Positions 2,739 to 7,093 of a stretch of DNA of 20,230 nt are shown here, one piece after another; within the stretch, counting starts at the first letter, position 1, and every line of letters begins with the position of its first letter. The notes beneath the pieces are model-generated. The model made no database searches, had not been told where the DNA came from, and saw only the letters and a program-made list of their open reading frames with translations. The translations under genes were made by a program, and so were the position numbers. This DNA comes from a virus, in IMG/VR virus record IMGVR_UViG_3300013102_000088, positions 1-20,230 of that record; one strand, written 5' to 3'.

Positions 2739-2763
2739 ATGGTGGGATTATATCTCCCACCAT
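2739..2763 (-). terminator. Hairpin ending the late operon, tailspike stop codon in its loop
   Basis: A perfect 9-base inverted repeat, ATGGTGGGA (2739-2747) and TCCCACCAT (2755-2763), is separated by a 7-base loop. In the minus-strand transcript the stem is followed directly by UUUU (complement of 2735-2738), which suits an intrinsic terminator for the late operon. The loop contains the tailspike stop codon (complement of 2748-2750). In the plus direction, for the gtr transcript, no U-run follows immediately; a T5 run lies at 2776-2780. Termination there is less certain. Confidence 0.65.
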
Positions 2764-4949
2764 CCATCTGACATCTTTTTATATGATTTTGACCAGTTAT
2801 TACCAGTCATTGTCTGGTCCGCTAACGTTTTATTAACGATACGTTGATCTGAAGACACTCCGCTAGCGCTGTTTAAGAATGCAACGCTGGCACCACCTGT
2901 TGTTCCACGGAAAGTAACCACTTGCCCAGTCTTTCCTCCTATTATCCTGGATACCGATAAGCTTGCGGCATTGCAGTTCCAAAAGTCACTGATTTCAAAA
3001 TTAACAGTAGATGCCCCTACAGCACTGAGTAGTTTAGGGGCGCTGTCATCACCAATAACTCGATAAGCGGTAACTGCACTGTCTGTTAGACTTGCAATAA
3101 CAGACGCTGATGAGCCATATGGTCTGTTTCTCGAACCAAACATACGGTTAGTAGACGTTATTGCATAGTCAGCGCCTGATTTCATATAGAAAGTATTATT
3201 TTCAATTGTGACATCAGACGACGCATTTTTGATGTAAGGAAGACCAGATACTAAAATCTCATCAAAAAGACAGTTTTGTATTGTCAGCCCTTGGCATCCG
3301 CTACCGATCTCGAATGGATTCAGCGTTGTTGATTCACCACTTTTAAATGTACAGTGATCAAATAAAGCACCGGTTTCTCCCACAATGATTACATCCTGGA
3401 AGTTATCCATGAAAATGCAATCACGGAATGAAAGACCATTCTTGGAATCATATGTTGGGTTGGTCGATGGTTGGGCGTTGACACCATAATAAGAGTTTTT
3501 AAATATACACCCTATAAATGTCGTCTTTCCTTTATTGCCCATAAAACGCAGGCCTGAGCTCCCAAGCACGTGGTTATTCCAAAACTCACAATTAATAAAT
3601 TGAACCGTGAAGTTCTGATTTGACCATGAAGGAAGATCTTCTCCTGTTGAACCGTCCTTGTTTGTTACTATAACCCATACATTATTATTAGCCTGCGTCA
3701 GACCTGGGTTTTTACATTTGCAGTTCTCAAACACTACGTTCTGACTGTACCTGGTTATTCCTCTATCACCACTGTAGAAAACAATGAAGTTAGGGGTGTT
3801 ATATGCAGTGCAGTTGAAATATTTGACATTATAACATGATGCAACCCTGAGCCAGGCATCCATGTTTGGTAGATTTTCGCAATGAAAATCTTCAACATAA
3901 ATATTGTATGGGTGTTTGCCGTTATTCAGTGTTGTGTCTACGGAAGGGTCAACAGGTTGCCTTCCGTATTCGGGATTCATTCCGAATTTCCATGACCCAT
4001 TCTTGATCAGGAATCGACGTACTGTGAGTCCATCACACTCGCCAAGGTTCGCAATGACAAACCCATGATAAATAGCGTGACCATCTGCGCTTACATCGTG
4101 CAATTCTACATCCCTGGTCATTAGCGTTCCAAGATACTGCCCGCCTATCCAGAATAGACAGGTTGAATTACCATTGGTATCAAATGAGTTAGCGCGGGTT
4201 GAAACAGTGGTGTATTTAAATCCTCCGATTCTTACTGGTCCGGTGTTATTGTAAACTACAAAGGTATGGTTTCCTCTGTTGCCTGCATCAGGAATATAAC
4301 CCTGAACGTTATCAATGATTATTGCACCATTGAAGTCAAGATCTATTCTACCGAAACCAATAAAACTAATAGTACTTTCTAGGCGATATGTACTTGAAGC
4401 ATTTCCTATTAATTTAACACCTGTTCCGGTGTAATTAGAGATAGCCGTGTTCAGCGCGGCAGAACTATCGAGAACACCCGTCTTGTCTACACCAGGCAGA
4501 TCGTCGATAAACATGAATACGCGATCGAGGTATTGCGTGAGATTAACGCCGCCCTTTGTGCCAATCAGGTTTGTTCCAGGTGGGTCAAATGAAGCTAATT
4601 GCGGCCTGAACTGGTCAGGGTCATATTTGAGAACGTCAGCTATGTAATCGACTTGTGAGCCATATGCATCGTAGATAGCCATGCTATGGCCTGCTACGGT
4701 AACCACTTTCACAAGTTGGCCGCCGTACACTATTTTACCGGCAGCGTTAACAATCAGTGGCTGCGGGATTTGAACGAGACTCTCATCTTCGTTTTCGATG
4801 TAAACTGGGATCTGATTGGCCGGAATTGTCGGGTCTGTATCAATCAGGCCGATATATATGCGCCCGTTAGCCACTGCGCGAAATGTGCGCGAGTCAGTGA
4901 AAATTGGGCGCGGGTTCGTTACCACTACATTTGCGGTGATATCTGACAT
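2748..4949 (-). CDS. 9: Tailspike, P22-type head-binding domain with a different receptor domain
   Basis: This 733-residue tailspike subunit is expected to form a trimer on the tail hub and to bind, usually also cleave, the host O-antigen. Residues 1-113 are the P22 head-binding domain (starts [10 protein letters not shown], ends [13 protein letters not shown]). Residues 114-170 form a linker widely shared by enterobacterial tailspikes ([34 protein letters not shown]), the usual entry to a pectate-lyase-like right-handed beta-helix. The rest does not resemble the P22 endorhamnosidase that I recall and is longer (P22 has 667 residues), so it should recognise a different O-antigen. Rungs repeat an FxxCxF-like motif between 380 and 560. 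A C-terminal beta domain ends in DGWWEI. GGAG lies eight bases before the ATG. Catalytic residues cannot be assigned by eye. The gene is the last of the late operon and converges with gtrC. Confidence 0.93.
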
Positions 4950-4976: not shown

Positions 4977-4996
4977 GCACAAGCTAAAACTTGCGC
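4977..4996 (-). other. Hairpin in the tailspike leader
   Basis: In the minus-strand RNA, GCGCAAG and CUUGUGC pair (one G-U) around a 6-base loop, 27 bases before the tailspike ATG. No U-run follows, so this is not a convincing terminator. It could be an mRNA-stabilising or processing structure, or chance. Confidence 0.3.
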
Positions 4997-5016
4997 AGCG
5001 TTGCATTAAGGTCGGT

Positions 5017-5022
5017 TATAAT
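5017..5022 (+). promoter_or_regulatory. Perfect TATAAT -10 element for the micro-gene
   Basis: TATAAT stands 22 bases before the ATG at 5045. Transcription would start near 5029, just ahead of the GGAGGG ribosome binding site at 5036-5041. No good -35 hexamer lies at 16-18 bases; TTGCGC at 4991-4996 is at 20 bases. The promoter is therefore inferred mainly from the exact -10 and the compact arrangement. Confidence 0.5.
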
Positions 5023-5044
5023 TAGTTAAATGAATGGAGGGTTT

Positions 5045-5116
5045 ATGGAACGTGACTGGTTGAACTTTGCTTTCTTAATCTTTGGCATCTGTGTAGGTGT
5101 TGCCCTATTCACTTAA
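5045..5116 (+). CDS. 23-residue single-pass membrane peptide (possible moron)
   Basis: This tiny plus-strand gene sits between two minus-strand late genes. It encodes MERDWLNF followed by a hydrophobic stretch, AFLIFGICVGVALF, and ends in Thr-TAA. A short charged head followed by about 17 hydrophobic residues is typical of one-helix inner-membrane micropeptides. A strong GGAGGG at 5036-5041 and a perfect TATAAT at 5017-5022 precede it. An in-frame ATG at 5030 would add five residues but has no ribosome binding site. The last 12 bases overlap the 3' end of gene 16 on the opposite strand. P22 keeps prophage-expressed immunity and exclusion genes at this locus, so expression from the prophage is plausible. 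I do not recognise the family. The function is unknown, and a chance ORF cannot be excluded. Confidence 0.5.
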   Translation: MERDWLNFAFLIFGICVGVALFT

Positions 5117-7093
5117 TGCCTCAGATTTCGCACCCTGAGCGAATGAATTAACTACTCGCTCAACATCAGATAACGCTTTCTCAAATGCTGTAGAGCCGCG
5201 TGGAGTATTAGCCAGGCGCAGCATTGCATTACGTGCTGGCTCGCTCTCATACATTCTTGCAAGCAGCCCATAGCCACCACCAACACCAATCAAAGCAGGG
5301 TTAGTCACAGTGCCAATACCCATAATGAATGGGATAGTCTGTTGTCCGGTTGGTGTTGTAACTCCTGCCTGCCCTGCTCTCTTCGTTGACTCAAGATAGT
5401 TCTTCAGCCCTTTAAGATACGCCGCATCTCTCCCTTTGAACGCGATTCCCGTCTGGTTAGACATCAGATTAACTTGTCTCAGGAACTGGTCAGGCGAACC
5501 GCCAGATTTCTCCATTGCTTTACCGATAATGCCGTTACGCATTTGGGCGCGACCAATCTGGCCGACTGAGTTGTAGAGGTTCTGCACTTCAGACTTGTTC
5601 TTACTGAAAAGCATGTTGTTAACTACTTCTGGAGTAAGGTCGCCTTTCATCAGCACATTCTTCAGGCGGGTATTCTGGAGTTTGCTGGCCTCATCTGCGT
5701 ATACAGCGTTGGCCTGCTTGTAGCGGCGTAGAGTGTCGTCGCCAAGGTTCTTACCAATGGAGCTATCAATGTCTCCGGTCATAGCCCTGTAAACGCGCTG
5801 AATAGCCGCATCAGAACGATTGGGCATGACGACCCGCTCACCCTTAACATCCTGCCTGAACTGGCTGCGCAGATTACTCAACTGCTGCAAATCAACGTTA
5901 CCGCCTGCCAGCTCATCACGATATGACTGGAGTTTACTTATTGTGTCTGTATCTGCGACCTTGCCCAGTTTCTGAAGACTGGCTATCTCATCATCAATCT
6001 GCTGCAGTGCTCTGGTGGGCTGTATGCCTACTCCAGTCATGGCATTTTGCACCTGCTCAAGGCGATTCCCCGCGGCCTGTTTGATACCGGCTGTTTTGGA
6101 TTTGAGGCTGCCAATCACAATTGACGGGTCGTAATCACCAAATCGTGAGGCATACTCATTCACCAGTTGGCTTCTAGCTTCCTGCTGCCCTGCTCGCATG
6201 GTGCTTGTACCAGCGAAAGGAATGTTTTCCGCTGTGGTCTGAGCCATTCGCCCGACGCGGGAATTTGGCTGCAGAACGTCAGTTGTATGCAGAGGAACAT
6301 CCGCAGAGTTAGCAAATCTGATCGCCTGTTGTGCCTCTGGAGAGATTGCACCTTTTACTCCACGATATGCAGCGCCAGCAACGCGTCCAAGTTGATTAAT
6401 TGCTCCTCCCAATACAACACCAGTTCCAAGGTCGGTGGCCAGTGCTGACGGGTTATTCTGTTCGCTATTCGCAGCCATAGAACCCACAACGTTCTCTGCC
6501 AGCAGTCGTGATGCTCCTTGCGCTACACGACCGGCAATCGTCGGAGCTTGAGTGACGATTCGCTCAGCACCTACAGGGGCAAGGTATGGTAATGCTTCAG
6601 CGAAGATTTTACCTTCCGTGGTCTGTGGGGTTAATGCACCTTGCTGAAGCCCTAAATCCTGCGCCAAACCTTCTGTTGTCACGCGTGGTGCTGGTTGGTA
6701 TGTTCCATCACCTAATCCAAGCTTGTTACCAGCCCATGCCCCTGCGCTCGCCACAGCATCAGCCATTGATGCAGGGATGTTTGCCAGGTTAACGCCAGCC
6801 TGGAGCAATCCACGCCCTGTTTCCGCTGCCGCACTCCCGAGGTCAGAAAGGAAGCCGCCTTGCTGCTGTTGTTGTGAAGAATCCTGATCAGCAGCAGGCT
6901 GTTGCTCCTGTTGTTGCTCTGGCTGTGGTGGCGGATATGCGGCATAGAACTGATCTCTTGCCTGCGCCCATTTATCACCAACCTGTGGCGCAACTACCTC
7001 ATCAAAGTATTGCGCCTGAGCTTGTGCCTTTTCAGATGGAGATAGTGCCTGATACTGTTGCGAGGCAATCACGTCTTTCCATGCCTTAGCCAT
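5105..7093 (-). CDS. 16: Gp16-like DNA ejection (internal virion) protein
   Basis: This 662-residue protein holds the gene 16 position, between 20 and the tailspike. In P22, gp16 is packaged in the head and ejected with gp7 and gp20; it is required for DNA to cross the cell envelope. The N-terminus has a compact segment (AWKDVIASQQYQALSPSEKA, then YFDEVVAPQV at 29-38), a Pro/Gln-rich linker at about 53-78, and several Ala/Gly-rich amphipathic or hydrophobic stretches (80-125, 165-235). A second hydrophobic stretch lies near the C-terminus (IPFIMGIGTVTNPALIGVGGG). Such segments suit membrane insertion. The protein is longer than the 609 residues I recall for P22 gp16, so the N-terminal part may differ from P22. 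Its start forms a TAATG overlap with the gene 20 stop. The 3' end overlaps the oppositely oriented micro-gene by 12 bases. Confidence 0.9.
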   Translation of the reverse strand: MAKAWKDVIASQQYQALSPSEKAQAQAQYFDEVVAPQVGDKWAQARDQFYAAYPPPQPEQQQEQQPAADQDSSQQQQQGGFLSDLGSAAAETGRGLLQAGVNLANIPASMADAVASAGAWAGNKLGLGDGTYQPAPRVTTEGLAQDLGLQQGALTPQTTEGKIFAEALPYLAPVGAERIVTQAPTIAGRVAQGASRLLAENVVGSMAANSEQNNPSALATDLGTGVVLGGAINQLGRVAGAAYRGVKGAISPEAQQAIRFANSADVPLHTTDVLQPNSRVGRMAQTTAENIPFAGTSTMRAGQQEARSQLVNEYASRFGDYDPSIVIGSLKSKTAGIKQAAGNRLEQVQNAMTGVGIQPTRALQQIDDEIASLQKLGKVADTDTISKLQSYRDELAGGNVDLQQLSNLRSQFRQDVKGERVVMPNRSDAAIQRVYRAMTGDIDSSIGKNLGDDTLRRYKQANAVYADEASKLQNTRLKNVLMKGDLTPEVVNNMLFSKNKSEVQNLYNSVGQIGRAQMRNGIIGKAMEKSGGSPDQFLRQVNLMSNQTGIAFKGRDAAYLKGLKNYLESTKRAGQAGVTTPTGQQTIPFIMGIGTVTNPALIGVGGGYGLLARMYESEPARNAMLRLANTPRGSTAFEKALSDVERVVNSFAQGAKSEALSE

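Follow-up and report, generated by a model that had tools for sequence, protein, structure and literature searches.

A conserved 23-residue membrane micropeptide gene antisense to the late operon of P22-like phages and its probable role in superinfection exclusion

The 20,230-nucleotide stretch of viral DNA analyzed here (IMG/VR record IMGVR_UViG_3300013102_000088, hereafter the window) encodes, between gene 16 and the tailspike gene, a micropeptide of 23 amino acids (MERDWLNFAFLIFGICVGVALFT; positions 5045-5116, plus strand, ATG at 5045-5047 and TAA stop at 5114-5116) whose gene is, with near certainty, real, conserved and protein-coding. Its presence is associated with the type of the neighboring gene 16 product (gp16). 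The micropeptide, if translated as its gene predicts, most likely represents a minimal SieA-like superinfection-exclusion protein that would block incoming gp16 in the inner membrane. Published genetics, combined with coordinates, further suggest that it is probably responsible for the exclusion attributed to STnc6030, an RNA of phage BTP1. No earlier description of the peptide was found in the searchable literature, and large catalogues of phage small ORFs may hold it as an unnamed cluster.

The micropeptide gene is located on the strand opposite to the late operon and converges with the gene 16 homologue (5105-7093, minus strand), which encodes an ejection/DNA-transfer protein of 662 amino acids affiliated to PHROG 770 “DNA transfer protein” (E=2.7e-230). 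The 3' end of gene 16 is overlapped by 12 nt, corresponding to the final three codons and the stop of the micropeptide gene. The other flank of the slot is formed by the tailspike gene, at the gene 9 position (2748-4949, minus strand), next to which an O-antigen modification operon (GtrA-like, GtrB-like and a large membrane protein) occupies positions 8-2734 in the opposite orientation. The elements listed in the initial annotation, namely a TATAAT -10 hexamer (5017-5022, plus strand), a GGAGGG Shine-Dalgarno (SD) sequence (5036-5041, plus strand), an ATG and a 23-codon frame opposite to the late operon, were all retrieved at their described positions. The window contains a single succession of TATAAT, SD, ATG and an open frame of 15 codons or more, versus 0.01 expected according to 300 dinucleotide-preserving shuffles. 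Another in-frame ATG at 5030, which would give a 28-aa form, was rejected, and the start was set at 5045 because homologues display stops or non-start codons at the upstream position. The micropeptide displays one predicted transmembrane helix and a conserved G14-xxx-G18 motif, with G14 invariant in the L-type and Sf6-type phages.

A generic promoter scan of the window did not call the micropeptide promoter, since the position of the -35 hexamer is occupied by a TTGC-N6-TTGC box (TTGCGCAGCGTTGC; 4991-5004, plus strand), 12 nt before the -10 and the sole such site in the window, which we take to be the activator box of lambda CII / P22 C1. CII-activated lambdoid promoters combine TTGC-N6-TTGC over the -35 and a -10 located some 12-13 nt further on, and activation of the micropeptide promoter by CII is suggested by its agreement with this arrangement. 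The TATAAT of the initial annotation was confirmed, with the correction that it belongs to a promoter other than the plain sigma-70 kind, a CII-type box standing instead of a -35 hexamer. The box is present in 41 of the 48 distinct L-type upstream sequences and absent in cases of upstream DNA replacement; it is found in only some of the Sf6-type loci. Similar boxes are located in BTP1 beside cII and antisense inside Q, two places at which lambda is known to have CII-activated promoters; BTP1 has nine such sites in total versus 3.4 expected.

Scanning IMG/VR with gp16 as query retrieved 80 L-type loci with a gp16 identity of 77-95%. The frame, proposed as a conserved coding gene, is intact in all 80, with the stop at the same place, and none of these related loci presents the internal stops or frameshifts that had been put forward as refuting evidence. 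Over codons 2-20, i.e. outside the gp16 overlap, the L-type micropeptides (43 distinct sequences, 31 peptides) display a dN/dS of 0.118, a value reached by none of 300 frame-destroying column shuffles (null mean 0.86, minimum 0.41). L6, N7 and G14 are invariant in the 43 distinct sequences and position 18 is either G or A. Diverged homologues of 25 aa, e.g. MQRDLLNIAFYIVGFCTFLVFAKLF, are encoded at the same place in Sf6, 683R2 and IME10 and, more generally, in 74 of 78 Sf6-type loci, with a dN/dS of 0.25 over the non-overlapping codons (37 distinct sequences). Three of the four remaining Sf6-type loci share one common replaced sequence before the end of gene 16 and the fourth is a contig end. 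The micropeptide was not found beside 148 gp16 loci of other types (79 P22-type, 65 HK620-type and 4 Morganella-type). A profile search over 392 genomes of one bacterial family revealed four places at E <= 0.001; in five of the whole genomes searched, the strong match mapped to the junction in the prophage, and the matches ranking after it had E > 0.03.

The DNA upstream of the gene is far less constant. In ST64T and S9-5 it has been replaced and an mnt gene lies upstream of the micropeptide, while an arc/mnt-like gene or a lipoprotein gene terminates immediately before it in IME10 and in many loci of the Sf6 type. Of the signals whose retention was to be checked, TATAAT is kept in most L-type loci, and GGAGG is kept in most loci, including several whose farther-upstream DNA is unrelated. 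The constant element is therefore the micropeptide ORF adjoining gp16, and its conservation while the RNA context varies argues for a function as a protein rather than as an RNA.

This gene family has been overlooked in well-studied phages, to which it can now be added: Sf6, the L-type phages, ST64T, ST104 and MG40. The expectation that it would be unannotated in relatives agrees with its absence from the annotation of all the public phage records checked, Sf6, 683R2 and IME10 among them. Pfam, NCBIfam and PADLOC gave no match for the micropeptide. A 41-kb “plasmid” of S. Typhimurium ATCC 14028 (NZ_CP043906.1) also harbors it, together with P22-like tailspike, Arc-family and gp16 genes, a gene content that makes this replicon look like a P22-like phage genome.

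A possible function is provided by phage BTP1, in which a locus described as an antisense RNA, STnc6030, is transcribed in the lysogen (PMC7067206). Carried on a plasmid, STnc6030 confers total immunity to BTP1 and none to P22, and its overexpression leaves the spontaneous induction of BTP1 unchanged, which the authors call unexplained (PMC7067206). It starts antisense to the 5' part of the tailspike gene and was considered non-coding on the ground that it has no ORF > 60 aa (PMC7067206); a 2025 review still cites it as a case of antisense-RNA exclusion (PMC12197685). Coordinates were transferred between the D23580 chromosome and BTP1 with three gene anchors (PMC4413052 versus the BTP1 record), which gave a constant offset (D23580 = BTP1 + 390238). 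The BTP1 micropeptide gene (14082-14011, minus strand) occupies the same locus and strand as STnc6030 and, judging by coordinates, would be included in it whichever placement compatible with the paper is chosen. Speaking against a firm assignment to a given native transcript, the published Northern bands (~500 nt) are shorter than 786 nt. The micropeptide ORF is the sole ORF of the BTP1 STnc6030 transcript with both an ATG and an SD. So placed, an ORF under purifying selection belongs to STnc6030, which departs from an antisense RNA devoid of functional ORF. The transcription of this locus in the BTP1 lysogen is also in line with the idea that the gene is expressed from the prophage.

The proposal that this prophage gene acts on the membrane or on DNA entry gains support from the exclusion observed in BTP1 on expression of the locus and from the escape phages, which are altered in the DNA-injection protein gp16. 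Five escape phages carried four SNPs within 36 bp of STMMW_03891, all non-synonymous in gp16 (PMC7067206); the review places these SNPs antisense to the tailspike gene (PMC12197685). Four missense changes out of four would occur by chance in about 20% of cases in such a 36-nt segment. The SNP cluster corresponds to codons 584-595 (of 655) of BTP1 gp16, LGIGTVTNPALV, and lies within the most hydrophobic 19-mer of this protein, IPFILGIGTVTNPALVGVG. In P22, mutants escaping SieA alter gp16 at G532 and P546 (PMC10883804), which align with G576 and V589 of BTP1 gp16, the latter inside the escape cluster. The equivalent segment in the window, the proposed target, covers gp16 codons 591-602 (MGIGTVTNPALI; 5288-5323, minus strand). 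It is more variable than the surrounding gp16 C-terminus; as the candidate for the most variable part of gp16 it was rejected (rank 99 of 570 windows). Within L-type phages, no strict pairing was found between peptide subtypes and variants of the gp16 segment. The PDB contains no structure of this gp16, and its AlphaFold model has a pLDDT < 50 at 576-616.

These observations suggest the following mechanism. The prophage would express the 23-residue single-pass membrane peptide from a promoter directed against the late operon, and the peptide would be placed in the inner membrane. When gp16 is ejected by a related phage, the peptide would meet its Gly-rich hydrophobic C-terminal segment (584-595 in BTP1, 591-602 in the window), probably through close helix packing by the conserved G14-xxx-G18 face, and the DNA conduit would thereby be kept from forming or opening. 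Direct contact with gp16 and the membrane topology of the peptide are model-based parts of this scheme. Linkage and overlap with gene 16 would keep the exclusion gene with the gp16 type it recognizes. P22 differs in its gp16 and lacks the micropeptide; the failure to exclude P22 and the unreduced induction would both follow from a target in gp16 at the entry step, as phages from an induced prophage would be unaffected by a block on a protein acting during DNA entry alone. The peptide reading, if true, would therefore resolve the question left open by the authors of how induced BTP1 escapes its own immunity, and it amounts to a testable revision of an exclusion system published as antisense-RNA-based. 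It would also imply that a 23-residue helix is able to stop phage DNA entry via an ejection protein, and would provide a minimal probe for the crossing of the inner membrane by podophage gp16.

In the published interpretation, STnc6030 is a cis-encoded antisense RNA that base-pairs through its 3' part with the mRNA of gene 16 and so lowers the stability of the late transcript; the ORF would be incidental to exclusion. This interpretation agrees with the antisense orientation of STnc6030 to genes 16 and 9, its expression in the lysogen and the restriction of exclusion to a phage with sequence identity (PMC7067206), yet we regard it as unlikely. It explains neither the conserved reading frame nor the unaffected induced BTP1, and it turns into a coincidence the presence, in the escape segment, of the position aligned with SieA escape. 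Moreover, for the predicted duplex, which spans the 243 nt of overlap with gp16, a single mismatch barely shifts the equilibrium pairing energy (-495 versus about -491 kcal/mol).

Two other explanations admit a real peptide and are less probable still. Known type I toxins resemble the micropeptide in length and hydrophobicity, and a small hydrophobic toxin of this kind, acting by abortive infection or membrane damage, would fit with the antisense transcription of the locus and with a short leader folding weakly over the SD (-8.2 kcal/mol). However, this leader is short and the SD strong, no separate antitoxin RNA was found and Rfam gave no match, escape maps to one phage structural protein, and the constitutive clone had no reported defect and still allowed P22 to plate (PMC7067206), all of which makes a toxin very unlikely. 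Alternatively, the peptide could act on the gp16 of its own phage or on the membrane in the course of assembly or lysogeny establishment, exclusion being due to another part of the insert; this seems slightly less remote while still improbable. The strict linkage to the gp16 type would suit a chaperone-like partner of gp16 as well, and the CII-type box suggests expression at lysogeny establishment; but the gene, being transcribed against the late operon, lacks the usual co-expression with gp16, and the other ORFs of the BTP1 insert have no SD.

Exclusion of incoming phages by the micropeptide, the explanation that we retain, finds its closest parallel in P22 SieA. The initial annotation had pointed to immunity and exclusion genes at the equivalent place of P22, and sieA is indeed located there in the same orientation, between genes 16 and 9 and antisense to the late genes; all the sieA-like genes that Leavitt et al. 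examined occupy this same interval (PMC10883804). SieA is a prophage-expressed membrane protein, to which the micropeptide is likened on the basis of its predicted features, and in both P22 and BTP1 escape occurs through the C-terminal region of gp16, P546 of P22 corresponding to V589 of BTP1. The two proteins nevertheless differ in several respects. SieA has 164 aa and several transmembrane helices whereas the micropeptide has 23-25 aa, one helix and an unrelated sequence. The former blocks several gp16 types (PMC10883804), while the latter is tied to one gp16 superfamily. Full escape from SieA requires changes in both gp16 and gp20 (PMC10883804), against single gene 16 SNPs for BTP1. Homology with the SieA family is not indicated either: P22 SieA matches phrog_7745, whereas the FxRYPxEAxxFNK motif is absent from the micropeptide, and PHROG searches gave only E=0.03 for the 28-aa form and no match for two other members of the micropeptide family.

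The slot is occupied by diverse small genes in other phages. Beside P22-type gp16, it contains sieA of types A and B, coiled-coil single-helix proteins, lipoproteins and others; two groups of such loci encode a secreted protein (145 aa) and a lipoprotein (161 aa), the gene of the latter also immediately preceding the micropeptide gene in several phages of the Sf6 type. In HK620 and CUS-3, the gene of HkcB lies directly against gene 16 in this convergent slot; like the micropeptide this protein has a hydrophobic helix, here N-terminal, but it reaches ~108 aa with a coiled coil and shows no sequence similarity to it. A set of related HK620-type loci (L274 and relatives; L090, positions 2314-2643) likewise carries hkcB (single helix and coiled coil, phrog_5962) abutting the gene 16 stop, and these represent candidate gp16-linked exclusion genes. 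Single-helix ORFs of 31, 32, 32 and 42 aa were also identified by the gp16 stop in four loci with distant gp16 types, from Rahnella, Morganella (including a Morganella-type viral contig) and Yersinia prophages.

Among other small prophage products guarding against phages, DicB and the HK97 gp15-type proteins are both larger than the micropeptide and unrelated to it. DicB is described as acting through host inner-membrane receptor proteins (PMC6832061). HK97 gp15 acts on DNA entry, and is cited as going with long-tailed phages (PMC10883804). BTP1 STnc6030, described as non-coding, is here read instead as the mRNA of the micropeptide. As a tentative generalization, which we consider possible rather than probable, the slot could be an exclusion site paired with the ejection protein, where each gp16 type is linked to small membrane genes (SieA, HkcB, the 31-42-aa peptides and the 23-25-aa micropeptide) blocking its own gp16; the micropeptide would then be one of the smallest exclusion proteins described, with CII turning on its expression as lysogeny becomes established.
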